From the NCBI GenBank assembly GCA_027063065.1, contig JAMOSO010000024.1, positions 1 to 53,370 of the forward strand: 53,370 nucleotides of DNA. The letters are read 5' to 3'. Of this stretch, positions 11,886-52,824 are shown piece by piece (within the stretch, counting starts at the first letter, position 1; each line of letters begins with the position of its first letter). The notes beneath the pieces were generated by a model. The model was not told the DNA's origin and searched no databases. It worked only from the letters and a program-made list of their open reading frames with translations. The position numbers and the translations under genes were made by a program. This DNA is from Planctomycetota bacterium. GTDB lineage: Bacteria > Planctomycetota > JAMOSO01.

Positions 11886-12164
11886 ATGGATATAATATTT
11901 GATAAACATACTAAGGCCTTGCATAAACGCATCGAAAAAATGATTCGTCAAATGCAAGAAAATCCCAAAAATTTAGAAGCTTACAAAATAGAATGGGTCA
12001 ACAAAATAGCGTCTACTGCTGCTGAATTTGAATCAGGTGGTTTTTCTAATCGTCAATGCGAGGTGATTAATGATATTTATAAAGCATACAAACAATGTAA
12101 AAAACATAAACCTAGTATTTTAAAAGATGCAAAGCGTACAGTTATTCAGGGTGAGTTTAAATAA
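11886..12164 (+). CDS. Small hypothetical protein coupled to a LacI regulator
   Basis: I do not recognise this 92-residue protein. It is charged and mostly helical (HKRIEKMIRQMQENPKNLEAYKIEW), without signal peptide or membrane segment, so cytoplasmic. An upstream TTG at 11847 would add 13 hydrophobic residues, but ATG 11886 gives a more regular protein; no clear SD is seen for either. Its stop and the ATG of the LacI gene share one base (TAATG), which implies translational coupling. Confidence 0.6.
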   Translation: MDIIFDKHTKALHKRIEKMIRQMQENPKNLEAYKIEWVNKIASTAAEFESGGFSNRQCEVINDIYKAYKQCKKHKPSILKDAKRTVIQGEFK

Positions 12165-13171: not shown

Positions 13172-13193
13172 ATTGTTAAGCTAAAGCAAAATA

Positions 13194-13207
13194 TGCAATC
13201 GATTGCA
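13194..13207. promoter_or_regulatory. LacI-type operator upstream of fucI
   Basis: TGCAATCGATTGCA is a perfect 14-base palindrome with CG at its centre, the hallmark of LacI/GalR-family operators. It lies between the LacI regulator stop (13171) and fucI (13224), 7-10 bases ahead of the AAGGAG ribosome-binding site. Bound repressor would block fucI transcription coming from either the regulator gene or a local promoter. I saw no second exact copy in the window. Confidence 0.7.
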
Positions 13208-13223
13208 CAGATAAAGGAGAACC

Positions 13224-22295: not shown

Positions 22296-23252
22296 ATGAA
22301 AAAATTAATACTTTTAGCTATGATAATATGTGGCACAAATGCAATGACTATGGCTAAACAATGTAACTGGATTGCGACTTCCGGAGATTGGAATAACGCT
22401 TCTAATTGGGAAAACGCTAAAGTGCCAACTATCAATGATAGCGTTGTGTTTTCTGGGGACAAAATCGATACCATATATATTAAATCTAAGGCTGTAGCAA
22501 AGTCAATTACAGTAGCTGAGGATGCAACTCTTACAATCAATTTGAAATCAACAAATTTAACTGTTGCCGAAGATATAGTAATCAAAGGCGGAACTTTTCT
22601 TGGGGGTGGTGGCAAAAGTGTTATAGAAGTTGGGCGTAATTTTATATATACAGCTAATCACTTTTTAGCCAGTGGCTCAACAGTTGTTTTAAAAGGTGAT
22701 GGCATATTAAGTGGTGGACGTTACAACAAATTAATTATGGCATTTAAAGATAAAACAATAGAATTAGACGGTTCAATATATCCAAGGTCAGTATCGTTAC
22801 AAGGCGGAACTTTACAAAGCGTTAAAGGTGGAATAAAGTTTTATAGTGATAAACCTGTTCTTAAAGGTTTTGATACTTCCGTAACTCAAATTAATTATAT
22901 TGCTTTTCAACCAGGTAGAGTATGCGAAATTAATCTGCCTAATATCAAGACAGATAGCTCTATAAACTTTGAATGTAATCACGTAAAAGTTAATTATGTA
23001 GTTACTGGCAAATTAGAAGTTGCCCAAGGTATAAAAGTGTTTGGGAATGATAATGGTTTACCTACATTGGTGTTAAACGGAGGTGAAATCGCTACAAAAT
23101 CTATTGATTTAGGACTGCGAAATAGATCTCGTGGAGGCGTTTTAAAAATAATATCTGGTAAAATCACTGTAGACGAAGCTGTAAGCGTTTGTAATGGAGA
23201 ATCTTCTACAAAAATACCAGAAACTGGATACGAATCACTTGTAATTAAATAA
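22296..23252 (+). CDS. Exported beta-strand-rich protein, function unknown
   Basis: The 318-residue protein has a signal peptide (KLILLAMIICGTNAMTMA, cleavage near 20) and then a start typical of autotransporter-like or beta-helix surface proteins (WIATSGDWNNASNWENAKVPTINDSVVFSG cut here to its theme: GDW, NW, VP, VVFSG). Short, regular beta repeats follow (ATLTINLKSTNLTVAEDIVIKGGTF and similar), with many GG turns. No catalytic motif and no membrane barrel are visible. It is transcribed from the strong promoter at 22184 and followed by its own terminator at 23281, before the heparinase-like gene. A surface-exposed or secreted glycan-associated role is a guess from position only. Confidence 0.7.
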   Translation: MKKLILLAMIICGTNAMTMAKQCNWIATSGDWNNASNWENAKVPTINDSVVFSGDKIDTIYIKSKAVAKSITVAEDATLTINLKSTNLTVAEDIVIKGGTFLGGGGKSVIEVGRNFIYTANHFLASGSTVVLKGDGILSGGRYNKLIMAFKDKTIELDGSIYPRSVSLQGGTLQSVKGGIKFYSDKPVLKGFDTSVTQINYIAFQPGRVCEINLPNIKTDSSINFECNHVKVNYVVTGKLEVAQGIKVFGNDNGLPTLVLNGGEIATKSIDLGLRNRSRGGVLKIISGKITVDEAVSVCNGESSTKIPETGYESLVIK

Positions 23253-23280
23253 ATTTAAATCAAACCAATTCAAACAAATC

Positions 23281-23319
23281 AATACTTAGTCAATTTTTTG
23301 GTTAAGTATTTTATTTTTT
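23281..23319 (+). terminator. Rho-independent terminator after the exported beta-rich protein
   Basis: Arms AATACTTA (23281-23288) and TAAGTATT (23303-23310) are followed directly by TTATTTTTT. The stem is short, so it may be partial and allow readthrough into the heparinase-like gene, whose SD (GAAAGG) begins just after. Confidence 0.65.
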
Positions 23320-23333
23320 AGAAAGGCACGGCT

Positions 23334-25970: not shown

Positions 25971-25999
25971 AATAACATTTTAAAAGTATAGGATTTAAT

Positions 26000-28402
26000 A
26001 TGACAGAGATCTTTAATTTTGACGACCAAGATAGGGCAGTTGTAATCAACCGTTTTGATACTCCACAACCTTGGATTAACTATTTATCAAATGGTAGTTT
26101 TCATGCATTTGTTTCTCAAGCTGGCGGTGGGCTGGCTTGGTGGAAAACACCAGTAAACTTACGTTTAACTAGGTATCGACAATATAACTTACCCATTGAT
26201 TCACCTGGATTCTATGTGTATATTCGCCGTAAAAATGGTGATATTTGGTCGCCAACATTTAGACCTTGTGAAAAAGGGCTAGATAGTTGGAACGCAAAAC
26301 ATAAGCCAGGAAAAACTGTTTTTATAGCTCAAAAAGATGGATTAGTGGCGATTTTGACTTTATTTGTAGCGCCTGATAGAGATGGTTTAGTGTGGGATTT
26401 AAAATTAAATAATAAAACCGATGCTGAAATAGCATTAGATGTATTTGCTTATGTTGAATTATCCCAGCTTAATTGGGAGCATGAAGCAACTTCTGGCTAT
26501 TATCATAAATTGCAATTAAAAACTTGGTTTGATAAAAAATCTCAATCGGTCAATTATTTATGTCATACTATTAATCCGCGCAAAAACGAAGTTCCTTTAG
26601 TGTTTTTTGCTGGCAATCGTAAGGCTACTTCTTATTCTGGCAGTCGCGAAGAATTTATGGGTGCATATAGAAGCGAGCGCAATCCTATTGCAGTGGAAAA
26701 TGGTCAATGTCAAAATAGCACTATCGAATGTGGTGAGCCAATTGCGGCTCTTCATAATGCTGTAGTTGTTGGTGCGAATACTAGTGATAGGTTAGATTTC
26801 TTTTTAGGTGTTGCGCCTAGTGCTTTAATGGATTTAGAAAAAGCAGAACAAGTTAGAGATGATATTTTAGAATTTATTTACAAAGATGATAATATAGATA
26901 AGCAATTGCTAAAATTAGATTGCTGGTGGGAAAATCATTTTGATAAATTTCAATGTGATATCCCAGATGCTGTATCTAAACGTCAAATTAATACATGGAA
27001 TGTTGTCAATAGCGTAGTAACAGGTAGATTTTCGCGTTCTATAAATACTGTAGCCCCTGGTATTAGAGGAGTAGGCTTTAGAGATACATGTCAAGATATG
27101 TTGGCAATTGCTTATCGTCAACCACAATGGGCAATTAAAAATTTAAAATTTTTATTAACTCAACAATTTAGAGATGGTCATACTGTTCATTGTTCTTTTC
27201 CTGAAGAAAAAAAACCTCCACAAAAAACAGTACACAGTGATAATCATCTTTGGTTGCCTTTATTAGCTTATGCCATTTTAGCAGAAACAGGGGATTATTC
27301 TTTATTGCAAGAAAAAATAGACTACATTGGTGCCAAAGATTTTGATACAGATGGTGAAGGTACAATTTGGGAACATCTAGTATCTGCTATGCAATTTACA
27401 GATAATAATCTTGGTGTTCATGGTATCCCATTGACTTTTCACAGTGATTGGAATGATATTATTGGCAGATTTAATAAAGAAGGGCGCGGTGAAACTGTTT
27501 TTGCTGGAATGCAATATGTTGTAGCATTGCGTTATATGGTGGAAATTGCAGAAGAAAATAACTTTAACGAATTAAACTTATTAAAAGATATGTTGCAACG
27601 CCAAGTGGCATCGCTAGAAAAATGCAGTTGGGATGGTCAATGGTGGTTGCGTGGTTTTGATGATGATAAAAACCCTGTAGGCTCAAATAATAATTCCGCT
27701 GGTAAAATTTTTCTTAATCCACAAAGTTGGGCTGTATTGAGCGGAGTAGGCAATGCCAGTCAACATGTTGTAGCGATGGATGCCGTCAATCGCGAATTAA
27801 CCACTGGAGTTGGACTTAAAATTTTATCGCCAGGATTTCATTATTGGCAAGATGCAGGAGAAGCTAAAATTGGATATGGTCCAGGCTGTGGTGAAAACGG
27901 GGCTGTATTTTGCCATGCCAATGCTTGGGCTGTTATCGCCGAAGCATTATTAGGTAATGCCGAACGCGCGTGGGAATATTATAACCAATTAATTCCTGCT
28001 AATATTATTAAAAAAGTTGGTATTAAACGTTACCGAGCTGAACCATATGCTTGGGTTAGTAATATTGTAGGCCCAGAAAACAATCAATTTGGTTGGGGTA
28101 ATGTAGAGCAGGTAACTGGTACTGCGGCGTGGATGGATGTGGCAGCCACACAATATCTAATCGGCTTGAGACCAACCTTAAAAGGATTGCTAATAGCACC
28201 TTGTATACCAAAAGATTGGTCGGAACTATCTGTCACTAGAATGTATCGTAATGTTAAATTAAATGTAAAAATAATTAATGAAAGCAAATCTGGTGGCACT
28301 GTTAAAAGTGTGTCTGTTGATGGCGTAAAAATAGAAGGTGATTTAATAACTTCTGCTATAATCAAAAATAAACAAGTGTGTGATATTATAGTACAATTAT
28401 AA
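26000..28402 (+). CDS. GH94-family glycoside phosphorylase (first copy)
   Basis: GH94 enzymes phosphorolyse beta-linked disaccharides such as cellobiose or diacetylchitobiose, giving a sugar 1-phosphate. The 800-residue protein has the N-terminal beta-sandwich (NRFDTPQPWINYLSNGSF) and the alpha6/alpha6 barrel, with the family motif GFRDTCQDML (359-368), HSDNHLWLP, and the general-acid region HSDWND (about 481-486, where cellobiose phosphorylases read GDWND). No signal peptide, so cytoplasmic. It lies 29 bases after the heparinase-like gene and 20 bases before the fucosidase, in one operon. The exact disaccharide is unknown. SD AGGA precedes the ATG. Confidence 0.92.
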   Translation: MTEIFNFDDQDRAVVINRFDTPQPWINYLSNGSFHAFVSQAGGGLAWWKTPVNLRLTRYRQYNLPIDSPGFYVYIRRKNGDIWSPTFRPCEKGLDSWNAKHKPGKTVFIAQKDGLVAILTLFVAPDRDGLVWDLKLNNKTDAEIALDVFAYVELSQLNWEHEATSGYYHKLQLKTWFDKKSQSVNYLCHTINPRKNEVPLVFFAGNRKATSYSGSREEFMGAYRSERNPIAVENGQCQNSTIECGEPIAALHNAVVVGANTSDRLDFFLGVAPSALMDLEKAEQVRDDILEFIYKDDNIDKQLLKLDCWWENHFDKFQCDIPDAVSKRQINTWNVVNSVVTGRFSRSINTVAPGIRGVGFRDTCQDMLAIAYRQPQWAIKNLKFLLTQQFRDGHTVHCSFPEEKKPPQKTVHSDNHLWLPLLAYAILAETGDYSLLQEKIDYIGAKDFDTDGEGTIWEHLVSAMQFTDNNLGVHGIPLTFHSDWNDIIGRFNKEGRGETVFAGMQYVVALRYMVEIAEENNFNELNLLKDMLQRQVASLEKCSWDGQWWLRGFDDDKNPVGSNNNSAGKIFLNPQSWAVLSGVGNASQHVVAMDAVNRELTTGVGLKILSPGFHYWQDAGEAKIGYGPGCGENGAVFCHANAWAVIAEALLGNAERAWEYYNQLIPANIIKKVGIKRYRAEPYAWVSNIVGPENNQFGWGNVEQVTGTAAWMDVAATQYLIGLRPTLKGLLIAPCIPKDWSELSVTRMYRNVKLNVKIINESKSGGTVKSVSVDGVKIEGDLITSAIIKNKQVCDIIVQL

Positions 28403-28422
28403 ATTTATATAAGGATTGTGGA

Positions 28423-29676
28423 ATGCAAAACAAACAAAACACTAATACTCTTAATCAATGGATGAGTAATAAATTTGGATTGTTTATTCACTGGGGTATA
28501 TATTCTGTACCTGCTCAAGGTGAATGGGTGCGTTTTTTTAATGATATAAAATTAGAAGATTACGATAAATATGCCAATCAATTTGATCCAAAAAAATTTG
28601 ATGCAGAAAAATGGGCTGATGATGCTTGGAACGCTGGTATGCGCTATATTGTTTTTACAACTAAACATCATGATGGATTTTGTATGTATGACAGTAAACA
28701 TACTGATTTTAAAATTACAAATACTGCCTACGGAAAAGATATTACTGCTGAATTAGTTAAAGCTTTTAGAAATAAGGGGTTTCAAATTGGTTTTTACCAT
28801 AGTTTGGTAGATTGGCGTCATCCTCATTTTATTCCTGATTTAGAACATCCAGATGGTAAATATGGTCAAACTGACTTTCCAGATAGGGATTTAAATATTT
28901 ATCGTGAATATTTATATGCACAAGTAGAGCAGTTATTGACTTGTTATGGCAAAATAGATGTTTTGTTTTTTGATTATACATCACAATACAAAGAATCTTC
29001 GGAATGGCAGGCGGAAAAATTACTAGAAATGATTTATAAACTGCAACCAGAGATAATTGTTAATGATAGATTGTCTTATGATAAAACACCTGTTTTTTAT
29101 GGTGATTATTGTACCCCTGAAATTTCACTACCAAATCAAGCATTAACAATCGATGGAAAATTAGTGCCTTGGGAAACCTGTATGAATATGAATGATAACT
29201 GGGGTTATCATGCTGTGGATCAAAATTGGAAAACTGCTAAAACAATTATCCACGCTTTAATACACTGTGCTAGTATGGGCGGTAATTTATTATTAAATAT
29301 TGGCCCTGATGCTTTGGGGCAGTTTCCAACAGCTAGTATTGAGGTTCTGGAGGAACTTGGACAATGGATAAAAATATTTGGACATACCATTTATGGTTGT
29401 AATTCATCTAAGTTTAAACCTCCTGTGGGATGTTATTATACTCAAGCAGATGAAAAAACATTATATCTACATATGATTAATCCGCTGATGGGTGATTTAA
29501 TTTTACCAGAATTAGATGGATTAGTTAAAAATATAACGATTTGTAAAGATGGCTCTGAAGTAATGATGGTTACAACTTGGGGCAAGGAGTTGTTGTTAAA
29601 AGATGAATTGCGTATAAGACCACCTAAACATCTATCAAGAGATATGATTGATGTTTTAAAAATAGAACTTAAATAA
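28423..29676 (+). CDS. GH29 alpha-L-fucosidase
   Basis: The protein of 417 residues has the GH29 barrel: KFGLFIHWGIYSVPAQGEW (17-35), YIVFTTKHHDGFCMYDSKHTDF (75-96) with the substrate-binding His pair, then IDVLFFDYTSQ holding the catalytic nucleophile Asp184. The acid/base is not conserved in GH29 and I do not assign it. There is no signal peptide, unlike many fucosidases of glycan degraders, so it would hydrolyse imported oligosaccharides. It sits between two GH94 genes, joined by short gaps. The freed L-fucose would feed fucI at 13224. SD AAGGA is present. Confidence 0.95.
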   Translation: MQNKQNTNTLNQWMSNKFGLFIHWGIYSVPAQGEWVRFFNDIKLEDYDKYANQFDPKKFDAEKWADDAWNAGMRYIVFTTKHHDGFCMYDSKHTDFKITNTAYGKDITAELVKAFRNKGFQIGFYHSLVDWRHPHFIPDLEHPDGKYGQTDFPDRDLNIYREYLYAQVEQLLTCYGKIDVLFFDYTSQYKESSEWQAEKLLEMIYKLQPEIIVNDRLSYDKTPVFYGDYCTPEISLPNQALTIDGKLVPWETCMNMNDNWGYHAVDQNWKTAKTIIHALIHCASMGGNLLLNIGPDALGQFPTASIEVLEELGQWIKIFGHTIYGCNSSKFKPPVGCYYTQADEKTLYLHMINPLMGDLILPELDGLVKNITICKDGSEVMMVTTWGKELLLKDELRIRPPKHLSRDMIDVLKIELK

Positions 29677-29688
29677 TTGGTGTTAACG

Positions 29689-32019
29689 ATGGCAGAAAAA
29701 AAGACTATTTATGATTGCGATACATCGGGTTATTGGTGTAGTGAAAAGGATTATATTAACAAAGATAAAAGCTTTGGTTTGTTTATCGACAATGGCAAGG
29801 CGTATCAAATTAATAATCCTGATACGCCACGTCCGTGGTTAAATTATTTAAGCAATAAACATTTTGGTTCTGTAATTTCTAACCGCGGATTAGGTTTTTA
29901 TTGGTATGATTCATCGTTGTTGCGCATTACCAAATATGAGCATCCTATAGATTATTTACCACGTGAATTTCAAGATGGTAGAGATTTTATTATTACCGAT
30001 GAAGACACTGGAGAAAGTGCCAACTTGTTGCGTGATGCTCAAGATTTGATTTGTGAACATCGCCCTGGTTACACTAAATTTAAAGCTAGCGTTCTTGATG
30101 TTAAATGCACTGTTACAGTTTTTGTGCCATTAGAAGATTGCTGTGAAATAATCTTATTTAGTTTATGCTCTGATACTAGGCGTAGATTAAAAATACATAC
30201 TACGCAGGTTTGGGCGTTTGCATTATTTGGAGTGCATTCTGCTGAAGATGGAATCCCTTACGTATCTACACCGGGAAAAGACATTAAAATTAACAATGAC
30301 TCTAAAGCCATATATGCTCACTCAACAAATCAAGATTTACCTTATGAAATGTTTGGTTTATATACATCCCCACAAGCTAATAATGCAAAGTGTCAAAATA
30401 TATATGATAAACGCAAAGACGGCCGTGATTTTATATTTAATCATTGCAGTTTGATTTTTAATTTTGAACTTGAAGCAAATACAGAACACAATATAGAGAT
30501 TATTTCTGGCGCAGAAAACAACAAAAAAGATTTTGACTTATTATGTAAGAAATATGTTAATCAAAAAAATGCAAAAGATGCTTTTGATCAATTAACTAAT
30601 CAGTGGAATAATTGGATAGAAAATAATCATTGTTCTATTCCAGATGTTAATATTCAAAACTTTCTAAATGTTTGGTTTAAAAATCAAATGCATTTGGTTT
30701 TTAATCATGTTCGCTCTGGTCAAAATGGTTACCGAGACAGCTTGCAAGATGTATGGGGCTATACAATTATAGATGCGCAAGCTAGCTTAAAACGTTTTTA
30801 TGAAATTTTATCCTATCAATATACGGATGGAACAGCACCACGCAGTTTTTCATCATTTAATGATAATAAACATGACTTGCGTAGATTTATGGATTCTCCT
30901 GTTTGGATACCGCGTACTTTGATAGATTTGGTAAAAGAAATAGGTGATTTTAGTATACTTGATAAACAAGTACCTTTTATTAATGGAGAATTAGCCAGCG
31001 TAGAAGAACATACATGGCGAGCTTTAGATTATTTGTATAATAATCGTGGGTTACACGGCGCTTGCTTAACAGGAGATGGGGATTGGAACGATGCTTTAGA
31101 AGGTATTAGTAAAGATGGCGATGCTGTTTCTGTATGGCTAACTATTGCCTTGTATGACGGGATGAAACTTTTTGCTGAATTATTAAAATCGGCTGGTAAA
31201 CAAGAAAAATCTTTAATCTTGCAATCGCGAATGGCAGAAATTAAAGATGTAATTAATAAAAATTCTTGGGATGGTAATTGGTATGTTTATGGTTATACAG
31301 GTACAGGCGCACCGATTGGTTCTAAAGATAATAAAGAAGGTAAAATACATTTAAATGCACAAACTTGGGCTGTATTTTCTGGTTTAGCTGATACAGAACG
31401 GGCTAATATTACTTTGCAATCAGTTGATAAATATTTAAACACGCCTTTGGGGCCAGTTTTAATGAACCCTCCATATGTTAATGATGGTGCTGAGGTTGGG
31501 CGTATAGCAAATTTAGAACCGGGTACATTTGAAAATGCTTCAATATATCAACATGCTGTATCTTTTTATATTTTTGCTCTTTTAGCCTTGGATAAATCAG
31601 AACAAGCAGTACAAATTTTAGCTAATTTATTGCCAACTAATCCAGACAATTTTGATACCAGACGTACAAGTGAACCTTATTGTACAGGTAATTATTATTG
31701 TGGTCCAAATCATCCGCGTTTTGGACAAAACTTTTTTACTTGGTTTACAGGTAATGCCGCTTGGTTAATGCGCGCAGGATTTGATAATATGTTAGGTGTA
31801 AAGGCAGGGTTTAACGGCTTAGAGATTTCGCCATGTGTTCCACATAGCTGGAAAACTTACACTGTGGTGCGCAATTTTAGAAATTGTAGTTATACAATAA
31901 ATTTTAAACGTCAGTTAAACTGTAAAGATATTTACCTATTGGTTGACGGCAATAAAATTGATGGTAACGTAATACCTGTTTCAAGAAACTCTACATGTTG
32001 TGTAGAGGTTGAATTTTAA
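29689..32019 (+). CDS. GH94-family glycoside phosphorylase (second copy)
   Basis: This is a second GH94 enzyme of 776 residues, clearly different from the first copy. It has RPWLNYLSNKHFGSVIS at the start, GYRDSLQDVWG in the barrel, and the acid motif GDGDWNDALEGIS, which is closer to classical cellobiose or cellobionic-acid phosphorylases than the HSDWND of its neighbour. The C-terminus keeps the family pattern (RRTSEPYCTGNYYCGPNHPRFGQ). An upstream TTG at 29677 abuts the fucosidase stop; ATG 29689 with GGTG upstream seems more likely. Two GH94 genes of different subtype in one operon suggest two different disaccharide products. Confidence 0.92.
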   Translation: MAEKKTIYDCDTSGYWCSEKDYINKDKSFGLFIDNGKAYQINNPDTPRPWLNYLSNKHFGSVISNRGLGFYWYDSSLLRITKYEHPIDYLPREFQDGRDFIITDEDTGESANLLRDAQDLICEHRPGYTKFKASVLDVKCTVTVFVPLEDCCEIILFSLCSDTRRRLKIHTTQVWAFALFGVHSAEDGIPYVSTPGKDIKINNDSKAIYAHSTNQDLPYEMFGLYTSPQANNAKCQNIYDKRKDGRDFIFNHCSLIFNFELEANTEHNIEIISGAENNKKDFDLLCKKYVNQKNAKDAFDQLTNQWNNWIENNHCSIPDVNIQNFLNVWFKNQMHLVFNHVRSGQNGYRDSLQDVWGYTIIDAQASLKRFYEILSYQYTDGTAPRSFSSFNDNKHDLRRFMDSPVWIPRTLIDLVKEIGDFSILDKQVPFINGELASVEEHTWRALDYLYNNRGLHGACLTGDGDWNDALEGISKDGDAVSVWLTIALYDGMKLFAELLKSAGKQEKSLILQSRMAEIKDVINKNSWDGNWYVYGYTGTGAPIGSKDNKEGKIHLNAQTWAVFSGLADTERANITLQSVDKYLNTPLGPVLMNPPYVNDGAEVGRIANLEPGTFENASIYQHAVSFYIFALLALDKSEQAVQILANLLPTNPDNFDTRRTSEPYCTGNYYCGPNHPRFGQNFFTWFTGNAAWLMRAGFDNMLGVKAGFNGLEISPCVPHSWKTYTVVRNFRNCSYTINFKRQLNCKDIYLLVDGNKIDGNVIPVSRNSTCCVEVEF

Positions 32020-42308: not shown

Positions 42309-44654
42309 TTAAATTTCAGTTTCTTTTTTTAATAATTCTTCTAATTCACGCTCTTCTTTATGAGCTTCTTCAATAGTTACATGTTCTATATTTTCAACTA
42401 ACGCAATATCATCTGCGCTAACATTGCCAATTACACGACCATCATCCAACAAATTATCTTCTTTTTCTGCCAACCTTTGAAATAATTTACGCAAATCTAA
42501 AGTTCCACCAATTGTAAACCAAACTGTTGAAACAACTGCAACTGCCCCTGGAACAACAACATTACTAATCAAAAACCAGTCTGCCCAAGCTTTATCGCTC
42601 ATAGGCGAAACATAATTAACAATACAAAGTATTACAAAACTGCCAAAGCCCCAACCTATGGACCAAATAAATACTGACCATGCTAAAATTTTATCACCCT
42701 TAGTGTATTGAGAGTCAATACCAACCAATTTTTGAATAGCCACAAAAAAAGTCAGTTTTTCTTTTTCAACAGATTTGCCCTCGCGCCTATATTTGCCACG
42801 ATGCAAAAGCCTATCCATATTAAAAGCTTCTTTGCATGTAAAATAAGAAACAATAATATAAAGAGAAATAGCTACAACCATACTAATAAAAAATATTTCT
42901 TGGGAATTGATAGGAAATGAATCTGGATTCATCCGCCAAACAATAAAAGGTTCTAATGGACCAGATAAAGTCTCTAAGATATTGCCTAAAGTGCCTACAT
43001 AGCCCATTGAATCTAATGCTGGATATATATAAGCTGGCCACATTTTTTGCAAAATAATACCGCCTGTTGCTATAGATGAACCAGCCAATAACGATGCAAA
43101 AGCTCCAGCTGTTGTACCGCGTTTCCAATACAATCCACCAATAATTACAGGGCCTGAGCCACCAATCCAGATAGCACCTGTTATGGCAAAAAACATTAAA
43201 ATAAAATCAATTTGAGAAAAGTAAAACGAAAATAGAAAAGCAAAAACTGCTACCAGAGCTATAACAATCCTCAACATCATTAATTGTTGGTGCGGGGTTA
43301 CTGGCTTGCCTCGCAATGGTAAAATCAAATCTTGCACGATAATACTGCCCCATGAATGCATATAGGTAGTATCGGTACTGATAAGTAAAAATATACATAG
43401 GGCGCAAAAAATACCTGTAATACCTATTGGCAAAATATCTCTAAGTGCCGATGGCACACGCATTTGATTAAAAATTGTATTAAAGCTTGTAGCTGCCGAT
43501 TTGTCGGAATGAGCAATAATATTTTTAATATTATCACGCAAAGGCTCTCTAGAGTTAGTAGAATCTTTAATTACCAAAGAGCTAATTGATTGCGGTGCAG
43601 TGCCAGTGGCAATATAAGTTTGAATATCTTTTTTTACTGTTGCATTTTCTGGTGAAACCACATCGGCAACTACTTTGGCAGCCAACTGTTGACGACACTC
43701 TTGCGCCTCTTTAGAAAAATGACTGTGTGTTAAAAATGTAAACCCTGCTATTGCCAAAAGTATATACATCATATTAGCAAAACCTGCTCGCCAAGTACCA
43801 AGAACAGCACCCATTTTTTGTTCATGAGCATTCAAAGCTGCGGCGTTATAGCCTTGACTACCAGACCACGACATACGATTTAATACATTACTTAATAACC
43901 CTACAAAAATATAAAACAAATTAAAGGTTCTTAACTTATCTATATCAAAAGGGTTTAATAAACTTTTACCCGGCTCTACATTAAGTAAAGCTGGTTCTAT
44001 TTCTTGCCCCCAAGAGAATTTAAATAAAATATAAATCACAATTATGGCATATAACGGATAACTTAAAATACCTTGAATACAATCTGTAACCATAATTGTG
44101 ATTTGACCACCTATACAAACAATAAAAACGGCCAAAGATAAAAAGGTTGCCATTACCAAGCCAAAGGTTGGAAAGCTAACACCTAAGATACTTATTTCTA
44201 ATGGTAAATCGCAATAATAAATTAAAAAGCGTGCGCCCACCGCAGGGAAAATAGCATAGTTTAATACGCCTGATACTGATTGCAAAATGGCGGCAAAAAT
44301 CCTAAAAGTGCGACTATAACGCATTTCTAAAAACTGCCCCATTGTCAAAGCACGGGTTTCTCTAAATCTAAAGATACAATAACCTGTTAAAGTTATAATA
44401 ATGCCCAATGGCAAACCTATGCCAGACCAAAATGATACGGCAAAGCCTGAGTTATAATACATCTCAAACATTGCCACCAAACTAATTAATCCCATGCCAG
44501 CTTCTGCACCAGCTACAGCAACAACATAACGCCCTGCAACACGTCCAGCAGCTAAAAAGTCAGAAACTCCTTTAACGTATTTCTGCGCTTTTAAAGAAAC
44601 GGCTAAAACCAATAATAATGGTACAAATACAATAAGCCAATCAATCCAATGCAT
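42309..44654 (-). CDS. Sodium:solute symporter (SSS/SLC5 family)
   Basis: From ATG 44654 the protein has 781 residues, longer than the usual 500-650. AAGGAG lies 5 bases upstream of that ATG; the upstream Met at 44723 is less likely. It opens with a membrane helix (WLIVFVPLLLVLAVSL), then DFLAAGRVAGRYVVAVAGAEAGMGL and GYCIFRFRETRALTMGQFLEMRYSRTFRI, typical of SSS transporters. At least 13 hydrophobic segments are seen. A polar insertion lies between two central helices (about 325-395) and a charged, coiled C-terminal tail ends the chain. It follows lacI-gnd-pfkB on the same strand, separated by a hairpin, and is probably the uptake system for a sugar acid or sugar. Confidence 0.9.
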   Translation of the reverse strand: MHWIDWLIVFVPLLLVLAVSLKAQKYVKGVSDFLAAGRVAGRYVVAVAGAEAGMGLISLVAMFEMYYNSGFAVSFWSGIGLPLGIIITLTGYCIFRFRETRALTMGQFLEMRYSRTFRIFAAILQSVSGVLNYAIFPAVGARFLIYYCDLPLEISILGVSFPTFGLVMATFLSLAVFIVCIGGQITIMVTDCIQGILSYPLYAIIVIYILFKFSWGQEIEPALLNVEPGKSLLNPFDIDKLRTFNLFYIFVGLLSNVLNRMSWSGSQGYNAAALNAHEQKMGAVLGTWRAGFANMMYILLAIAGFTFLTHSHFSKEAQECRQQLAAKVVADVVSPENATVKKDIQTYIATGTAPQSISSLVIKDSTNSREPLRDNIKNIIAHSDKSAATSFNTIFNQMRVPSALRDILPIGITGIFCALCIFLLISTDTTYMHSWGSIIVQDLILPLRGKPVTPHQQLMMLRIVIALVAVFAFLFSFYFSQIDFILMFFAITGAIWIGGSGPVIIGGLYWKRGTTAGAFASLLAGSSIATGGIILQKMWPAYIYPALDSMGYVGTLGNILETLSGPLEPFIVWRMNPDSFPINSQEIFFISMVVAISLYIIVSYFTCKEAFNMDRLLHRGKYRREGKSVEKEKLTFFVAIQKLVGIDSQYTKGDKILAWSVFIWSIGWGFGSFVILCIVNYVSPMSDKAWADWFLISNVVVPGAVAVVSTVWFTIGGTLDLRKLFQRLAEKEDNLLDDGRVIGNVSADDIALVENIEHVTIEEAHKEERELEELLKKETEI

Positions 44655-44688
44655 AAAACTCCTTATCAATATAGTTAAAAACATAGTA

Positions 44689-44720
44689 TATGATGCCAAA
44701 GAAAAACTTTTGGCATCATA
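44689..44720 (-). terminator. Hairpin between pfkB and the symporter gene
   Basis: Twelve-base arms TATGATGCCAAA (44689-44700) and TTTGGCATCATA (44709-44720) with an 8-base loop lie about 100 bases after the pfkB stop. On the minus strand they are followed by TACTATGTTTTT. It probably terminates lacI-gnd-pfkB, or lets only part of the transcript through to the symporter. Confidence 0.6.
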
Positions 44721-44823
44721 CAACTATCGATATATATGATTAATAAAGCATATTTATGCTAACTTAGCAAATGTATTTTAAATAAATCGTATGACTTAGT
44801 GTAAATAATAGCCTATTTGCTTA

Positions 44824-45897
44824 CTATCTACGAACCCTTGCATTACCTTCCCAAATACTCCAAATCATCTCTTCATCAGCTGGTTGAGCATAGTCAGTAT
44901 TCATAGTGGCTGCCAAAGCTCCGCTTGCCCAACCAAATTGAGTGGCTTTTTCTGATTGCCAACCTTTTAAAATCCCGTACAACAATCCGCCAACAAAACC
45001 ATCACCACCACCAATGCGATCATAAACTACAATATCACGAGGCATAATAACATGCCAATCTTGATTATCAGACACAATAGCACCCCATTTATGATTATTA
45101 GTATTCACAACCTCACGCAAAGTTGTGGCATAAATAGAGCCATTTGGATAAACTTTTTTTACCCTTTCAATCATTTCTTTAAAACTTTCAATTTTAGCCT
45201 CTAACCCTTCTCCACCAGCTTCAGGGCCCTGAATACCAAGACAAAGCTGAAAATCTTCTTCGTTGCCTACTAAAATATCAGATAAGGATGCAATCTCAGA
45301 AAAAACTTCGCTTAATTCTGCTTCACGCCCCTTCCAAAATGAAGCTCGATGATTTAAATCAAATGAAATTTTAGTGCCATATTTTTTGGCAGTACGGGCA
45401 ATATCTAAACAAAACTGAGACGTCTCTTTAGAAAGAGCCCCAATCAAACCAGACAAATGCACAATTTGCACACCATCTTGACCAAAGATTTTATCCAAAT
45501 CAAAATCTTTTACATTTAATTTACGACCTACCTCACCAGCCCTGTCATTTTGAACACGGGGGCCTCGTGAACCAAAACCGCTATCAGCCATATTAATTTG
45601 ATGGCGATATCCCCAAGGATCTTCTTGTTCAAACTCAGGACCTTCAAAATCCATACGTCGTGAACGCAAATTATCCTTAATAAAATGAGATACTGGTGAA
45701 CCTTTTACAAAAGATGTTAAAATCTTAACGGGTAAGCCCAAAAACGAAGCTACACTTCCAACATTTGACTCGGCAGATGTCGCAGTCATTTTAAATATAT
45801 CGCTACAATGAAATGGTTGACCATTCACAGGTGTCAATCTAACGCCCATACTTGTTGGGATAAGTAATGAATATTTATAATCTTTTTTTAATTCCAT
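44824..45897 (-). CDS. PfkB-family sugar or sugar-acid kinase
   Basis: The 357-residue protein is a ribokinase-fold kinase. The N-terminal glycine-rich substrate region reads TSAESNVGSVASFLGLPV (AESNVG in place of the usual GGxxxN). The C-terminal anion-hole motif with the catalytic Asp is DRIGGGDGFVGGLLYGIL. The sequence type is nearest to 2-keto-3-deoxygluconate kinases. It follows gnd by 15 bases in the operon lacI-gnd-pfkB. Kinase specificity decides the cluster's chemistry: with gnd as neighbour, D-gluconate would give the Gnd substrate, while KDG would not. I cannot tell them apart from the sequence. Confidence 0.86.
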   Translation of the reverse strand: MELKKDYKYSLLIPTSMGVRLTPVNGQPFHCSDIFKMTATSAESNVGSVASFLGLPVKILTSFVKGSPVSHFIKDNLRSRRMDFEGPEFEQEDPWGYRHQINMADSGFGSRGPRVQNDRAGEVGRKLNVKDFDLDKIFGQDGVQIVHLSGLIGALSKETSQFCLDIARTAKKYGTKISFDLNHRASFWKGREAELSEVFSEIASLSDILVGNEEDFQLCLGIQGPEAGGEGLEAKIESFKEMIERVKKVYPNGSIYATTLREVVNTNNHKWGAIVSDNQDWHVIMPRDIVVYDRIGGGDGFVGGLLYGILKGWQSEKATQFGWASGALAATMNTDYAQPADEEMIWSIWEGNARVRR

Positions 45898-45912
45898 TTT
45901 TTGCCTTATAAA

Positions 45913-47367
45913 TTATACGTTATAACTATTTGAAGTAGTATCACCACCTCTTCCAGTCCAGTTTGTATGAAAAAACTCCCCGCGTGGTTTATCGATACGT
46001 TCATAAGTATGCGCACCAAAATAATCCCTTTGAGCCTGTAATAAATTGGCAGGTAAGCGCTCTGTTCTATAACCATCAAAATAGCTTATAGCACTTGAAA
46101 TAGCAGGCACGGCAATACCATTATTAATTGCCAAAGCCACAACTTTACGCCAACCAACCTGACAATCATCAACTTCTTTTTGAAAATAAGGATCGATTAA
46201 TAAATTGCTCAAATTAGGATTGTTATCAAAAGCTTCTTTAATTTTACCTAAAAATGAAGAACGTATAATACACCCGCCACGCCACATTAGTGCAATCGCA
46301 CCAAAATTTAGTCTCCAGTTATACTCTTTACCTGCTTCTTTCATAAGAGCATAACCTTGCGCATACGATATTATTTTAGACGCATATAACGCATCACAAA
46401 TAGCATCTAACATCTCTTGTTTATCACCAGTAAAATTAATCTTTGGACCTTTAAAATGCTTACTAGCTTCTACACGTTCTTCTTTTTGAGATGATACACA
46501 ACGGGCAAACACGGCTTCGCCAATTAAAGTAAGTGGCACACCTAAATCTAATGCTGTAATGCCAGTCCATTTTCCAGTACCCTTTTGACCTGCAGTATCT
46601 AAAATATTTTCAACTAATGCAGAACCATCTTCATCTTTATAGCCCATAATATCACGAGTAATCTCGTTTAAGTAAGAACTTAACTTACCGTTTTCCCACT
46701 GGGCAAACGTTTCTTGCATTTCATCAGCACTCATACCAAGCACATTTTTCATAATTGAATAAGCCTCACAAATCAATTGCATATCACCGTACTCAATACC
46801 ATTATGAACCATTTTAACAAAATGACCTGAACCACCATCACCAATCCAATCACAACAAGGTTCATCATTTTCTACTTTAGCGGCAATAGCCTGAAAAATA
46901 GGTTTAACTGATTCCCATGCTTCCACAGCACCGCCAGGCATTATTGAAGGCCCTGTCAATGCACCCTCTTCACCTCCAGATACACCAGAACCAATAAAAT
47001 GAATACCTTTTTCTTTTAAAGATGCAAAACGACGATCAGTATCTGGAAAATGTGTATTACCGCCATCGATAATAATATCACCCTTGTCCAATAACGGCGC
47101 AATTTTATCGATAAAAATATCAACCACTGGACCTGCTTTAACCATAAGCATAACTTTGCGAGGAGTTTTTAAATTGGCTACCAAATCCTCTACAGTATGA
47201 CAACCTATGATATTTTTACCTTTGGCACGACCTTCAATAAAATTATCAACTTTGTCGGTTGAACGATTATGCACTGCTACAGTAAAACCACGAGATTCCA
47301 TATTAAGAACCAAATTTTCTCCCATTACTGCAAGTCCTACCAACCCAATATCAGCTTTATCAGCCAT
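45913..47367 (-). CDS. gnd: 6-phosphogluconate dehydrogenase (decarboxylating)
   Basis: Gnd oxidises 6-phosphogluconate to ribulose 5-phosphate and CO2 with NADP. At 484 residues it is the long, classical form. It has the Rossmann start GLVGLAVMGENL, NRST at 34-37 (an NADP-type site), the substrate motif SGVSGGEEGA (128-137), and catalytic Lys185 and Glu192 in GHFVKMVHNGIEYGDM. The C-terminal helix ends HTNWTGRGGDTTSN. SD AAGGAG is strong, 9 bases after the LacI stop. Being co-transcribed with a regulator and a kinase, rather than with pentose-phosphate genes, suggests it is dedicated here to sugar-acid breakdown. Confidence 0.96.
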   Translation of the reverse strand: MADKADIGLVGLAVMGENLVLNMESRGFTVAVHNRSTDKVDNFIEGRAKGKNIIGCHTVEDLVANLKTPRKVMLMVKAGPVVDIFIDKIAPLLDKGDIIIDGGNTHFPDTDRRFASLKEKGIHFIGSGVSGGEEGALTGPSIMPGGAVEAWESVKPIFQAIAAKVENDEPCCDWIGDGGSGHFVKMVHNGIEYGDMQLICEAYSIMKNVLGMSADEMQETFAQWENGKLSSYLNEITRDIMGYKDEDGSALVENILDTAGQKGTGKWTGITALDLGVPLTLIGEAVFARCVSSQKEERVEASKHFKGPKINFTGDKQEMLDAICDALYASKIISYAQGYALMKEAGKEYNWRLNFGAIALMWRGGCIIRSSFLGKIKEAFDNNPNLSNLLIDPYFQKEVDDCQVGWRKVVALAINNGIAVPAISSAISYFDGYRTERLPANLLQAQRDYFGAHTYERIDKPRGEFFHTNWTGRGGDTTSNSYNV

Positions 47368-47376
47368 CTTTTCTCC

Positions 47377-48345
47377 TTAAATTGAATCCCTAATTACTAG
47401 AGATGTTGAAAAATTATATGTTTGTAAACTTATACCTTTATTTAAAAAACCATGGATTTGTTCGTATAAATACACTCCAATAGTCTCTGTTCCCTGTTCA
47501 ATTGTACTTAAAGATGGGTTTGTATACGCACTATATCTATCATTATCAAAACCCATTATTGCAACCTGTTTTGGGACTTTAATATTAGCCTTAGATAAAG
47601 TATGTAAAATCCCCAATGCGATTCTATCGTTATGACATACTAACGCATCTAAATCAGAAAGATTATTAATAATTTCGACTCCCACAGCTTTACCGCCTTC
47701 AAATGATGGTTGCGAGTTAAAGACTAATTCTCTTTGTAAACCAGCCAACTTTAAACCACTACGGTAACCTCTTAAACGTGGTTCTTGTCTAAAACCCTGC
47801 AAAACCAAAGCTATCTTTTTGCGACCACGACTAGCCAATTCTAAAACTGCATCATGAAAACCATTTTCGCGATTAATCATAACGCTTGGATAATTTGTAT
47901 CTACAACAGGGTCAACCAACATAAATGGATAGGACTGCTCCATCAAAGTATCATAATGATTATGTGCAGATATCTCCATCGCAGAAAAAATAACAATGGC
48001 ATCACAATGTGGTTTCATTTTATCTAGCAACTCTAATTCGTGGTCAAAACTACGCGCCCTATTTATAAGCAAAGAATAATCCGCCAAACTAAATAAACGC
48101 GTCATTGTGTCAATTCTAGCCCTGTTGACTTCGGAATCTGCCGAACTTTGTATCACACCGATAGTATTATTACGCCCCGTCCGCAAACCCCTGGCTCTAA
48201 TATTTGGCTGAAACTTCATATCTTTAGCAATTTGCAAAACACGCTCTCTAGTAGAATTTTTAACAGGACCAGAGTCGTTAAAAACCCTGCTAACGGTGCG
48301 TGCTGAACACCCTGCTAAATTTGCTATATCATGTATGGTTGCCAT
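47377..48345 (-). CDS. LacI-family regulator of the sugar-acid cluster
   Basis: The protein (322 residues) has the LacI helix-turn-helix at 2-24 (TIHDIANLAGCSARTVSRVF), a hinge (NIRARGLRTGRN) and an effector-binding domain starting TIGVIQSSADSEVNR. It is the first gene of a minus-strand operon with gnd and pfkB and divergent from the larA-like gene. A perfect palindrome with central CG, 35 bases ahead of its start, is the likely binding site and overlaps both promoters or their starts. The effector would be a sugar acid such as gluconate, mannonate or a phosphorylated product. Confidence 0.91.
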   Translation of the reverse strand: MATIHDIANLAGCSARTVSRVFNDSGPVKNSTRERVLQIAKDMKFQPNIRARGLRTGRNNTIGVIQSSADSEVNRARIDTMTRLFSLADYSLLINRARSFDHELELLDKMKPHCDAIVIFSAMEISAHNHYDTLMEQSYPFMLVDPVVDTNYPSVMINRENGFHDAVLELASRGRKKIALVLQGFRQEPRLRGYRSGLKLAGLQRELVFNSQPSFEGGKAVGVEIINNLSDLDALVCHNDRIALGILHTLSKANIKVPKQVAIMGFDNDRYSAYTNPSLSTIEQGTETIGVYLYEQIHGFLNKGISLQTYNFSTSLVIRDSI

Positions 48346-48402
48346 AATCGTTCCAATCAGTTATATTTTGCCACAGTTTATGCCATCGATGGCATTTGTC
48401 AA
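48339..48402. promoter_or_regulatory. Divergent promoters around a LacI-type operator
   Basis: The palindrome ATGCCATCGATGGCAT (48380-48395) is perfect over 16 bases with a CG centre. For the minus strand, TTGACA (48397-48402) and TAAACT (48375-48380) lie 16 bases apart, so the operator fills the spacer. For the plus strand, TTGCCA (48339-48344) and TATATT (48362-48367) lie 17 bases apart and the operator starts about +6. One bound repressor would silence both arms. Confidence 0.75.
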
Positions 48403-48416
48403 CAGGAGAACAAAAA

Positions 48417-49694
48417 ATGACTACTCATTTCGCAAAGGGTTCAAGATCAATAATATTTAATCAAAATCAAAAATCTCTGGCGTTAGATAATATTTTGGCA
48501 AGCATTAATATTGACGCAAAACGCGTTTTATTAATCCCTCCAGATTATACTAGGCTACATTCTGACGCTGGCAATTTAACCGCCATGCTATACGCAAAAC
48601 TAAGCTCAAACGCCCACGTAGATATTTTACCTGCCCTTGGCACGCACGTTCCAATGACACAAGATGAAATAATCAGTATGTTTGGCAATGAAATACCAAT
48701 GGATAGATTTTTAATTCACGATTGGCGTAATGGAGTAACCGAATTAGGTATTGTACCAGAAGAAAAAATAGCACAATTATCCGAAGGAGCTGTCAAATAC
48801 CCAATGCAAGTTGCCATTAGTAATCATTTAGTAAATGGCAATTATGATTTAATTTTAAGCATTGGACAAATAGTGCCTCACGAAGTAATCGGTATGGCAA
48901 ATTATACAAAGAATATTTGTATAGGCGTCGGCGGAGCTGACATGATCAACAAAAGTCATTACCTAGGTGCAGCTTATGGCATTGAACGTATATTAGGCAA
49001 TACTGTTACACCTGTTAGACAGGCATTGGATTACGGATTTAATCAATTTATTAACCATTTGCCAATTCATTTTATTTTTACAGTTATGGCAAAAGAAAAC
49101 GAAAAATTAGTAATGCGCGGCCTCTATGGTGGCGATGATTTTGCCACGTTTGAAAAAGCCGCAAAACTTTCACAACAAGTGAATTTAGATTTATTAGATC
49201 AGCCAATTAAAAAAGCCATTGTGTATTTAGAACCTGGAGAATTTAAATCAACTTGGCTAGGCAACAAAGCTGTATATCGCCTACGCAAAGCAATGGCAGA
49301 CGATGGAGAGCTAATCATACTCGCCCCCGCATTACGAGAATTTGGCGAAGACAAAGAAATCGATCGCCTAATACGTAAATATGGTTACTTAGGCACACCT
49401 ACAACTTTACAACAATGCAAAGACAATGATGAATTACGCAACAATTTAAGTGCCGCAGCACATTTAATACACGGCGCAAGTGAAGGTCGATTTTCTATAA
49501 CTTATTGCCCTGGAGAAAACATCAGCCAACAAGAAATAGAAAGTGTAGGTTATAAATATAAAAGCTATGCAGAAATGTCCACCTTATATAATCCAAACAT
49601 ATTAAAAGACGGATACAATCAAGTGAATGAAGAAGAAATTTTTTACGTTTCAAACCCTGCCCTAGGTCTATGGGCATTAAAAAGTGATTTTTAA
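48417..49694 (+). CDS. LarA-family nickel-pincer hydroxyacid racemase/epimerase
   Basis: The 425-residue protein belongs to the LarA (DUF2088) superfamily. ATG 48417 with AGGAG at 8 bases is preferred over TTG 48396. All catalytic positions of lactate racemase can be placed: His77 (GTHVPMT), His155 and Lys165 (PHEVIGMANYTK, 10 residues apart as in LarA His174/Lys184), and the nickel ligand His181, 16 after the Lys as in LarA His200. PPDYTR (41-46) is the usual DxTR. A member of this superfamily is known to epimerise D-gluconate at C2. Its neighbours (UxuB-like SDR, gnd) support a gluconate/mannonate substrate. LarB, LarC and LarE, which make the cofactor, are not in the window. Confidence 0.9.
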   Translation: MTTHFAKGSRSIIFNQNQKSLALDNILASINIDAKRVLLIPPDYTRLHSDAGNLTAMLYAKLSSNAHVDILPALGTHVPMTQDEIISMFGNEIPMDRFLIHDWRNGVTELGIVPEEKIAQLSEGAVKYPMQVAISNHLVNGNYDLILSIGQIVPHEVIGMANYTKNICIGVGGADMINKSHYLGAAYGIERILGNTVTPVRQALDYGFNQFINHLPIHFIFTVMAKENEKLVMRGLYGGDDFATFEKAAKLSQQVNLDLLDQPIKKAIVYLEPGEFKSTWLGNKAVYRLRKAMADDGELIILAPALREFGEDKEIDRLIRKYGYLGTPTTLQQCKDNDELRNNLSAAAHLIHGASEGRFSITYCPGENISQQEIESVGYKYKSYAEMSTLYNPNILKDGYNQVNEEEIFYVSNPALGLWALKSDF

Positions 49695-49715
49695 TTTTAT
49701 TTAATTGGAGTAAAT

Positions 49716-50540
49716 ATGAAATTATCTCTCGATAATCAAGTCGCAGTTGTTACCGGTGCAGCTGGAGTACTATGTTCATCACTGGCAAAATCATTATTAG
49801 AATGTGGCGCTAAAGTAGTTTTACTTGGTCGTACAGCATCTAAAGTAGAAAATTTAGCCAAAAAATTTGCCGACGAAGGTCTGACGCAAACACTTGCTAT
49901 CGGTGCTGACGTTTTAGACAAACAATCTTTAATCAATGCTAAAAAGAAAATCAACGACACTTGGGGAGCAGTATCCATTTTGGTAAATGGCGCTGGAGGC
50001 AACTCACCAGGTGCAACAAGTCCGCAGGAAGTTATGGATAGCAAAGAAGGTTCATTTTTTGAAATGGACTTAGACGGTTTCGATCAAGTTATGAAACTAA
50101 ACTACAATGGAACATTATTACCATGTATGGTTTTTGGCGAAGATATGCTTGATTGTCAAAATGCATCTATTATCAATATCAGTTCTATGTCTGCCATTTC
50201 ACCATTAACTAAAGTGGCTGGATATAGCTCTTCAAAAGCAGCTATTAATAACTTTACCCAGTGGTTAGCGGTACATTTTTCTAAAAAAGGTATCCGTGTA
50301 AATGCAATCGCACCTGGCTTTTTTGTATCAGAACAAAATCGTTTTTTACTTTATGAAGAAGACGGCAAGACACTGACACCGCGAGGCAATAAAATCATTA
50401 AAGCCACGCCAATGGAACAGTTTGGTAATCCTGAAGATTTAAATGGTGCTTTAGCCTTTTTATGCAGCCCACAAGCACGCTTTATCACAGGCATTGTTTT
50501 ACCTATTGATGGCGGATTCTCTGCTTATTCTGGAGTTTAA
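49716..50540 (+). CDS. UxuB-like SDR oxidoreductase (probable D-mannonate oxidoreductase)
   Basis: The 274-residue protein is a classical SDR: VAVVTGAAGVLCSSLA (NAD site, about 9-24), NGAGGNSPGATS, the Ser-Tyr-Lys triad (INISSMSAIS, then GYSSSKAA), RVNAIAPGFFVSEQNRFLL and a C-terminal DGGFSAYSGV. GVLC, NGAGGNSP, QNR and AYSGV are features of the SDR-type fructuronate reductases called UxuB in Bacillus and Thermotoga. It would reduce D-fructuronate to D-mannonate or do the reverse. It lies 21 bases after the larA-like gene in the same operon. Gluconate 5-dehydrogenase is the main alternative. Confidence 0.87.
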   Translation: MKLSLDNQVAVVTGAAGVLCSSLAKSLLECGAKVVLLGRTASKVENLAKKFADEGLTQTLAIGADVLDKQSLINAKKKINDTWGAVSILVNGAGGNSPGATSPQEVMDSKEGSFFEMDLDGFDQVMKLNYNGTLLPCMVFGEDMLDCQNASIINISSMSAISPLTKVAGYSSSKAAINNFTQWLAVHFSKKGIRVNAIAPGFFVSEQNRFLLYEEDGKTLTPRGNKIIKATPMEQFGNPEDLNGALAFLCSPQARFITGIVLPIDGGFSAYSGV

Positions 50541-50550
50541 AATACTACAG

Positions 50551-50585
50551 TAAAGGCTAATACTTCATTTGCGTATTAGCCTTTA
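50551..50585 (+). terminator. Terminator of the larA-uxuB arm
   Basis: Perfect 13-base arms TAAAGGCTAATAC (50551-50563) and GTATTAGCCTTTA (50573-50585) with a 9-base loop start 10 bases after the SDR stop and are followed by TATTTTAG. Confidence 0.8.
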
Positions 50586-50998: not shown

Positions 50999-52824
50999 TT
51001 AACTAATTCGTTTTTGATTTGATGTTGAAATTTGTGATGCAGATTTTGAATCCTTAACACCTTCTACCATACGTTTTAAATCATCAACAAAACGCATAAC
51101 CTCAGAAGCTTGTGCGCCCAACTCTTCGGCAGATGCGGCTCCCTCTTCTGAATTTGCCGCATTTTGTTGCGTAACTTTATTCATTTGAGCTACTGTAATA
51201 TTAATTTGCTCAATACCTTTAGACTGTTCATTACTTGCCGAAGCAATTTCGGTAGCAATATCATTAACTTTAGATATTCCTTCAGATATTTGATTTAAAA
51301 CATCGACCACTTCTTTAGTTATTGAAACACCATTATTAGCATTCTCAACCGAATTAGTAATCAAAGATGCTGTACTTTTAGCTGCCTCAGCCGATCTTTG
51401 AGCCAAACTACGCACTTCTTCGGCAACAACAGCAAACCCCTTGCCAGCATCACCCGCACGAGCAGCTTCTACAGCAGCATTTAAAGCTAACAGATTGGTT
51501 TGAAAGGCTATTTCTTCAATTGTTTTAACAATACCAAATGTTTCGTCTGATGATTTTTTAATTTCTGAAATTGCATCTGTCATTTTTAGCATAGATTTAA
51601 AACCTAAATCAGCTGCTTGTTTTGCATCGGAAGCCAACTGTTGCGCATGGTTAGAACTGTCAGTATTTTGTTTAATCATAGATGTAAACTCTTCTAATGA
51701 TGCAGAAGTTTCTTCAAGACTAGAAGCCTGCTCATTGGCACTTTCTGCCAATTCTTGAGATGCCTGTGCAACTTGAGTTGACGCAGAAGTAACCTGATGA
51801 GCGCCATCAGCTAAACCTTCAATACTAACGTTTATTTTATCAATGGATTTACCAGAGATTAACCAAAGCAAAAATACACCTATCAATAACAAAAGCAAAG
51901 ACGGAATAAATGTAACTAATTTTAAATATCTAATATCCGCGTTAATTTCTGCAACATTTAATTGATAAACCATAACAGCGACAGTTTCTCCATTAAAACT
52001 ATGCAATGGAAAAGCCATATAAGTTAAATCATTCATCTTGAAAGAAGTAGGTTTAATCTTACCTTTATCAAAAAATTCATTTGTTACAAGCGCTTCATTA
52101 AAATTGTCCGATTTACTAACAAAAATAAAATCTTTAAATGTCTTGGCGTTCTCCACAATATTTGACATTTTAAATTTAGATGTTATCGGCAATAATTTTT
52201 TATCCATATAAACGGCAATATCTTCTTTATCCAAATTTTTTGTAGATAAATAAATATTGTTCATATTATGAATAGACTCAACATCACCCAAATACTTATT
52301 ATTATCGTCAAATATAGGTGCTAAGCCACGAATCACCAAACCTGATCTGCCAGCCTCAATACCTAAAATAGGCTTTTTAGTTTTGCTAATAGATATAATA
52401 GTATTTCTGAAAGAGCTTAAATCATCACCACGCTTTTTTGACCACATTCTGGCAAATGATCTAGCTGGTGGTAAATGAAAATGAATTTTCTTTTTTTACC
52501 TGTAATTTCTGATGCATTTTTGATAACACTGGCAACATTATCAAATAAAATTTTACTACCCTTTTTGACACTGTTAGTTTCATAGAATTTTTTGTATGCT
52601 TTTTTCACTTCTGGCATACCTGCAAATATACTTGACTCGCTTAATGCTTTTTTGGAAACTCGTTTAATATCTTGATTCACTGTTATAACTTTTAACTGTA
52701 ACCTATCTTCTATTTGTTTATTTTTTGATTTCTCTAATAATGTCGATATTACTATACCAATAACAAAAAATATCACACAGAACATTACAATAGGTGTTAA
52801 TAATATTTTGGTTTTAAATTTCAT
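50999..52824 (-). pseudogene. Methyl-accepting chemotaxis protein interrupted by a frameshift
   Basis: Two overlapping frames make one chemoreceptor of about 600 residues. The N-terminal frame (52824 to about 52497) has a membrane helix (LTPIVMFCVIFFVIGIVIS) and the start of a dCache-like periplasmic domain. The C-terminal frame (about 52490 to 50999) completes that domain, adds a second helix ([18 protein letters not shown]) and the methyl-accepting domain with its invariant hairpin ([19 protein letters not shown] and [14 protein letters not shown]). Adding one A to the run of seven A at 52491-52497 joins the frames and restores a conserved [10 protein letters not shown] segment. No separate HAMP is obvious. 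The break may be real, phase variable, bypassed by slippage, or a sequencing error. Confidence 0.88.
52491..52497 (-). other. Homopolymer at the chemoreceptor frameshift
   Basis: Seven T on the plus strand (A7 on the coding strand), followed by GAAAA. One extra A, or a -1 slip of the ribosome or polymerase on this tract, exactly rejoins the two reading frames. No stem-loop stimulator is evident in the sequence just after it. Confidence 0.75.

Follow-up and report, generated by a model that had tools for sequence, protein, structure and literature searches.

A candidate glucuronate route avoiding mannonate dehydratase in a planctomycetal gene cluster with a LarA group 18 epimerase and a PfkB-family kinase

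Introduction

Can a compact set of neighbouring genes carry D-fructuronate to ribulose 5-phosphate without the help of mannonate dehydratase (UxuA)? This question is raised by a locus at positions 44824-50540 of a contig of a Planctomycetota bacterium (JAMOSO010000024.1), of which we analysed the whole stretch of 53,370 nucleotides (hereafter the window) together with the remainder of the genome and with genomes of the same phylum. The original prediction had drawn such a path and knew of no described pathway with this gene set. As an idea the route is not new, having already been proposed for Thermotoga maritima (PMC6978723, PMC3750489). The cluster is therefore best seen as a variant, in which the same job would fall to a different LarA group and a different family of kinases.

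Results

Organisation and control of the locus

The cluster in the window was confirmed: the PfkB kinase, gnd and lacI genes are found on the minus strand and the LarA-like and SDR genes on the plus strand, with five genes within 44824-50540. A sixth gene, originally counted to the same divergent control region, is that of a symporter and lies outside these limits, behind a stem-loop. The features are listed below.

42309-44723, minus strand: sodium:solute symporter family protein (PF00474 above cut-off, TIGR00813 below cut-off)
44824-45897, minus strand: PfkB-family kinase of 357 aa (PF00294), proposed gluconate (or mannonate) 6-kinase
45913-47367, minus strand: gnd, decarboxylating NADP-dependent 6-phosphogluconate dehydrogenase (TIGR00873)
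47377-48345, minus strand: LacI-family regulator (PF00356 and PF13377), probable local repressor
48380-48395: perfect 16-bp palindrome ATGCCATCGATGGCAT in the lacI/larA gap, candidate LacI operator
48417-49694, plus strand: LarA-like gene with ATG start (NF052594, LarA-superfamily group 18)
49716-50540, plus strand: SDR gene (NF006132), proposed fructuronate reductase (D-mannonate oxidoreductase, SDR-type UxuB)
50552-50584, plus strand: stem-loop AAAGGCTAATAC-9 nt-GTATTAGCCTTT followed by TATATTTT, downstream of the SDR gene, probable terminator

The lacI and larA genes diverge from a gap of 71 bp (48346-48416), where promoter-like hexamers (matches to consensus only) flank the palindrome on both strands; an alternative TTG start of the LarA-like gene is possible at 48396. 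No second exact copy of the palindrome is present anywhere in the window, and the regulator reaches the cut-off of no curated LacI equivalog. A LacI-type repressor bound to this palindrome would control both directions. A tie of UxaC to the same operator was considered and rejected, given that the surroundings of uxaC in the window genome contain neither a palindrome copy nor a convincing site; a good operator site was also not found near the kdgK-kdgA pair of the genome. At the other end of the operon, pfkB and the symporter gene are separated by a stem-loop of 14 pairs that has a T-rich tail (44722-44687). Co-transcription of the symporter (a possible uronate importer) with the operon is therefore uncertain.

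Several further observations were made elsewhere in the window. A second LacI-type palindrome-like site (ATGCAATCGATTGCAC, 13193-13208) has a lacI gene (12164-13171) on one side and a gene for L-fucose isomerase (13224-15032) on the other. Fucose or uronates may come from a glycan cluster at 22296-32019, which encodes a heparinase II/III-like protein, an alpha-L-fucosidase and two GH94 phosphorylase-like proteins. A cobalamin-dependent methionine synthase (18228-21964) is divided over two ORFs, with the homocysteine domain at 20951-21964 and the remainder at 18228-20951. For a methyl-accepting chemotaxis protein (50999-52824) there are two ORFs that overlap and differ in frame, which suggests a frameshift or split gene. 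Finally, a 99-aa protein at 10541-10840, which has no Pfam match, starts like the CheY-binding end of FliM (LSQEEIDALLSG).

The LarA-like protein belongs to group 18

With 611 bits against a cut-off of 500, the LarA-like protein is assigned to NF052594, 'nickel-dependent putative hexonate epimerase'. It keeps the full set of catalytic and NPN-binding residues of LarA as listed in PMC7583248, namely the catalytic D43, H77, H155 and K284 and the NPN-binding R46, K165 and H181. Four of these (His77, His155, Lys165 and His181) had been recognised in the original prediction, which also claimed exactly the spacing of lactate racemase. This is correct for H155-K165-H181, where the distances of 10 and 16 residues equal those of H174-K184-H200 in LarA, whereas H77 and H155 are 78 residues apart against 66 for H108 and H174.

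Two features reported for groups 18-20 (PMC7583248) are found in the window protein: the E-V loop that follows the second catalytic His (E156, V157) and the Trp in helix 11 (W280). Moreover, D43, R46, H77, H155, E156, V157, K165, H181, W280 and K284 are invariant in 20 relatives. The best structural match of the protein model is T. maritima GntE2 (4nar, Z 40.6), with lactate racemases at 29.7 or lower, and the genes for NPN synthesis (larB, larC and larE) are all found in the genome.

The substrate of group 18 has so far only been hypothesised, and T. maritima GntE2 and C. glutamicum GntE1 were shown to be active on D-mannonate (PMC7583248). The genomic neighbours of group 18 point by context to mannonate/gluconate, and we propose that the window protein is a D-mannonate/D-gluconate 2-epimerase.

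Reductase, Gnd and the rest of the genome

The SDR reaches 380 bits on NF006132 (D-mannonate oxidoreductase, cut-off 281); the original prediction had likened it to fructuronate reductases. Gnd reaches 771.6 bits on the TIGR00873 equivalog (cut-off 426.7) and is the sole Gnd match in the genome.

UxuA, KdgK and KdgA are, as stated in the original prediction, not encoded in the cluster. Extending the search to the genome gives a divided outcome for these bypassed genes. For UxuA there is no PF03786 match in the assembly, which is approximately 90% complete, so that the absence of any single gene is weak evidence. KdgA, on the other hand, is present elsewhere and adjoins a second PfkB protein that is KdgK-like: on the aldolase/KDG-kinase fusion model the latter obtains 445 bits against 162 for the window kinase. 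Given this separate KDG kinase/aldolase pair, the window kinase is to be regarded as a second, different enzyme. UxaC is present as well, outside the cluster. Zwf yields two partial matches, the better one with E 4e-57, where most relatives reach about 1e-105 or lower; the gene may be broken or split. The single Gnd could have an additional role in the oxidative pentose phosphate pathway.

A separate clade of PfkB kinases

The window PfkB protein reaches no curated kinase equivalog and remains far under the cut-offs of the KDG-kinase equivalogs (98 bits against 440, 48 against 400 and 29 against 400). Its AlphaFold model is nearest to the T. maritima KDG kinase TM0067 (2afb; Z 42.0, 28% identity) and has the PfkB fold of KDG kinase. 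Orthologs, defined by at least 70% identity (with no sequences between 70% and 37%), are present in 18 of the 392 genomes of the phylum, distributed over 11 families. The 16 full-length orthologs share 70-75% identity, form one separate clade (100/100) and have GDGF instead of GDSF. Both KDG-site Tyr residues are replaced by Asn in the window kinase and in all 15 other full-length orthologs, while the two acid-binding Arg are kept in all 16; in the Thermus and Sulfolobus KDG kinase structures the two Tyr line the KDG site.

All 18 genomes with a kinase ortholog also contain a LarA match of at least 150 bits and a Gnd match, and the co-occurrence of kinase and LarA has a Fisher p of approximately 2e-12 (phylogeny not corrected for). 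LarA is not of group 18 in four of these genomes; in one of them (G276) the LarA between SDR and Gnd closely resembles GntE2 (4nar, E 8e-61), whose function was proven by experiment. The kinase therefore tracks the reaction, not one LarA group. Around unlinked kinase copies no conserved neighbours hint at another function, beyond the synteny of three close relatives. A literature search, which covered few subscription papers, turned up no description of a PfkB kinase for gluconate or mannonate. The clade is a candidate family of gluconate (or mannonate) kinases.

Recurrence of the gene set in related genomes

Group-18 LarA occurs in 49 of the 392 genomes. We compared 40 LarA neighbourhoods, four from named genomes, those of the kinase and some further ones of LarA, and found that SDR, Gnd, UxaC and the kinase recur near LarA, confirming that the gene set is also present in relatives. 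Of 49 loci, 15 have Gnd at a distance of up to about 9 kb from LarA and 8 have UxaC, and many group-18 loci have neither Gnd nor the kinase close by. Two relatives, the closed genomes G310 and G330 (loci L050 and L052), have SDR-LarA-PfkB-Gnd-UxaC in this order next to TRAP transporter genes and a ROK regulator; they count as one lineage because they are of the same genus. Neither of these closed genomes has a match for Zwf, and each has one Gnd, inside the cluster; their 6-phosphogluconate therefore most likely comes from the cluster pathway.

Other loci present variations on this arrangement. Four genomes (G126, G208, G260 and G156) have SDR-LarA-Gnd-UxaC without the kinase, of which an ortholog is found elsewhere in each genome. 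RpiB, the next enzyme after ribulose 5-phosphate, adjoins LarA in three loci. Four related loci have an FGGY kinase between LarA of group 18 and the SDR, as if it would fill the PfkB step; for those scanned, the scores are similar for gluconokinase (gntK) and xylulokinase (XylB), weak and well under cut-off. Mutual exclusion of group-18 LarA and UxuA was considered as a general pattern and rejected, given a weak overlap of the two across genomes.

Two side observations concern individual loci. A weak match to UxaE (tagaturonate epimerase) at L063:10205-12076 adjoins SDR-Gnd-RpiB-LarA, which recalls the T. maritima locus. A HAD-like protein (L049:9752-10654 and L084:5172-6050, 45% identical to each other) is part of the cluster of LarA-18, Gnd and SDR in G286 and in G093, two genomes that do not have the window-type kinase; it is absent from the other neighbourhoods scanned, a pattern that is complementary to that kinase.

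Discussion

We consider it probable that the genes of the cluster supply the middle and lower steps of a glucuronate catabolism that avoids mannonate dehydratase and runs via mannonate and gluconate to ribulose 5-phosphate. UxaC (encoded elsewhere) would yield D-fructuronate, which the SDR would convert to D-mannonate; the group-18 LarA, equipped with the nickel-pincer nucleotide, would then invert C2 to give D-gluconate. Phosphorylation of gluconate at C6 would be carried out by the PfkB-family kinase, after which Gnd would form ribulose 5-phosphate from 6-phosphogluconate by oxidation and decarboxylation, such that NADPH from Gnd makes up for the NAD(P)H that the reductase consumes. Following the genome searches, the route from fructuronate to ribulose 5-phosphate as originally drawn is still the best explanation of the locus, with gluconate as the substrate that we infer for the kinase.

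The order of the two middle steps deserves attention. We favour epimerisation first and phosphorylation second, but the reverse order, with PfkB as a mannonate kinase and LarA epimerising 6-phosphomannonate to 6-phosphogluconate, is equally compatible with the gene set. It also has a precedent: extracts of galacturonate-grown Lactobacillus suebicus show both activities, a mannonate kinase and a 6-phosphomannonate 2-epimerase to which no genes have been assigned, and formed no gluconate from mannonate without ATP (PMC6978723). Nonetheless, both assayed LarA enzymes of groups 19/20 use free D-mannonate (PMC7583248) and the kinase is found together with the GntE2-like LarA of G276, and we regard the reverse order as rather unlikely. 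We are just as doubtful that mannonate 6-kinase has its first gene family in the PfkB clade and that LarA group 18 is a 6-phosphomannonate 2-epimerase; if true, a nickel-pincer enzyme would have a phosphorylated sugar acid as its substrate, and there would be candidate genes for both L. suebicus activities.

The window kinase might also be taken for a KDG kinase, given that its nearest fold and its nearest curated families are those of KDG kinases. The cluster would then be part of the usual mannonate-KDG-KDPG route, and LarA would catalyse a side reaction. This is very improbable: UxuA was not found in the genome, a KdgK-like kinase with a far higher score on the fusion model is located beside KdgA, and Gnd would serve no purpose in such a route. 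KDG-kinase identity of the gene was thus rejected on the basis of its low scores, the separate KdgK-KdgA pair and the two changes from Tyr to Asn. A further option is that gnd is merely a housekeeping gene of the oxidative pentose phosphate pathway, placed here by chance, whereas LarA and the SDR act on another hexonate. The window genome, with its Zwf matches and single Gnd, would allow for this, but the linkage of Gnd to LarA in 15 of 49 loci and the Zwf-less genomes G310 and G330, with their sole Gnd in the cluster, led us to reject chance placement and make this option highly unlikely too.

The preferred route, with gluconate as intermediate, has a close counterpart. For T. maritima, Rodionova 2012 (as cited in PMC6978723) put forward a pathway in which mannonate is epimerised at C2 and phosphorylated before Gnd acts, the corresponding galacturonate route is UxaR-regulated with the regulon gnd-uxaE-uxaD-gntE-gntK (PMC3750489), and the epimerase was proven in 2020 (PMC7583248). 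Reduction, LarA-type 2-epimerisation to gluconate, phosphorylation and Gnd would be common to both (PMC3750489, PMC7583248), and the window cluster likewise brings together the genes for reductase, LarA-type epimerase, kinase and Gnd. Differences are that T. maritima uses an epimerase of LarA group 20 (GntE2), and UxaE for galacturonate, against group 18 and a PfkB kinase here, and that it additionally has a UxuA/KdgK/KdgA branch. The kinase of T. maritima, GntK, is of the FGGY type. The FGGY gluconokinases have a fold unrelated to PfkB, and the window cluster contains no FGGY gene and has the PfkB kinase instead.

The galacturonate pathway of L. suebicus also joins the isomerase pathway to 6-phosphogluconate and Gnd and is redox-neutral to ribulose 5-phosphate, although phosphorylation precedes epimerisation and a phosphoketolase follows downstream (PMC6978723). 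With the PfkB KDG kinases (TM0067, 2afb) the window kinase has its fold in common, whereas its clade is linked to LarA and Gnd, not to UxuA and KdgA, and both KDG-site Tyr are replaced. Compared to the canonical UxuA route, the window genome is without a detectable mannonate dehydratase.

Our literature search, limited to few subscription papers, found no paper on the route in Lentisphaerota, and within the literature searched neither the PfkB kinase nor LarA group 18 was previously tied to it. New here are, by context, a function for LarA group 18 and a candidate family of PfkB gluconate/mannonate kinases. LarA group 18, formerly with a guessed substrate, thereby gains one through strong genomic context. 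The kinase family, which is conserved (18 of 392 sampled genomes), would likely be called KDG kinase by automatic annotation. Misread in this way, the genomes seem to run the KDG route; read correctly, they would lead glucuronate into the pentose phosphate pathway with release of CO2 and balanced redox. The closed genomes G310 and G330, in which Zwf has no match, seem to rely on this route to obtain 6-phosphogluconate.
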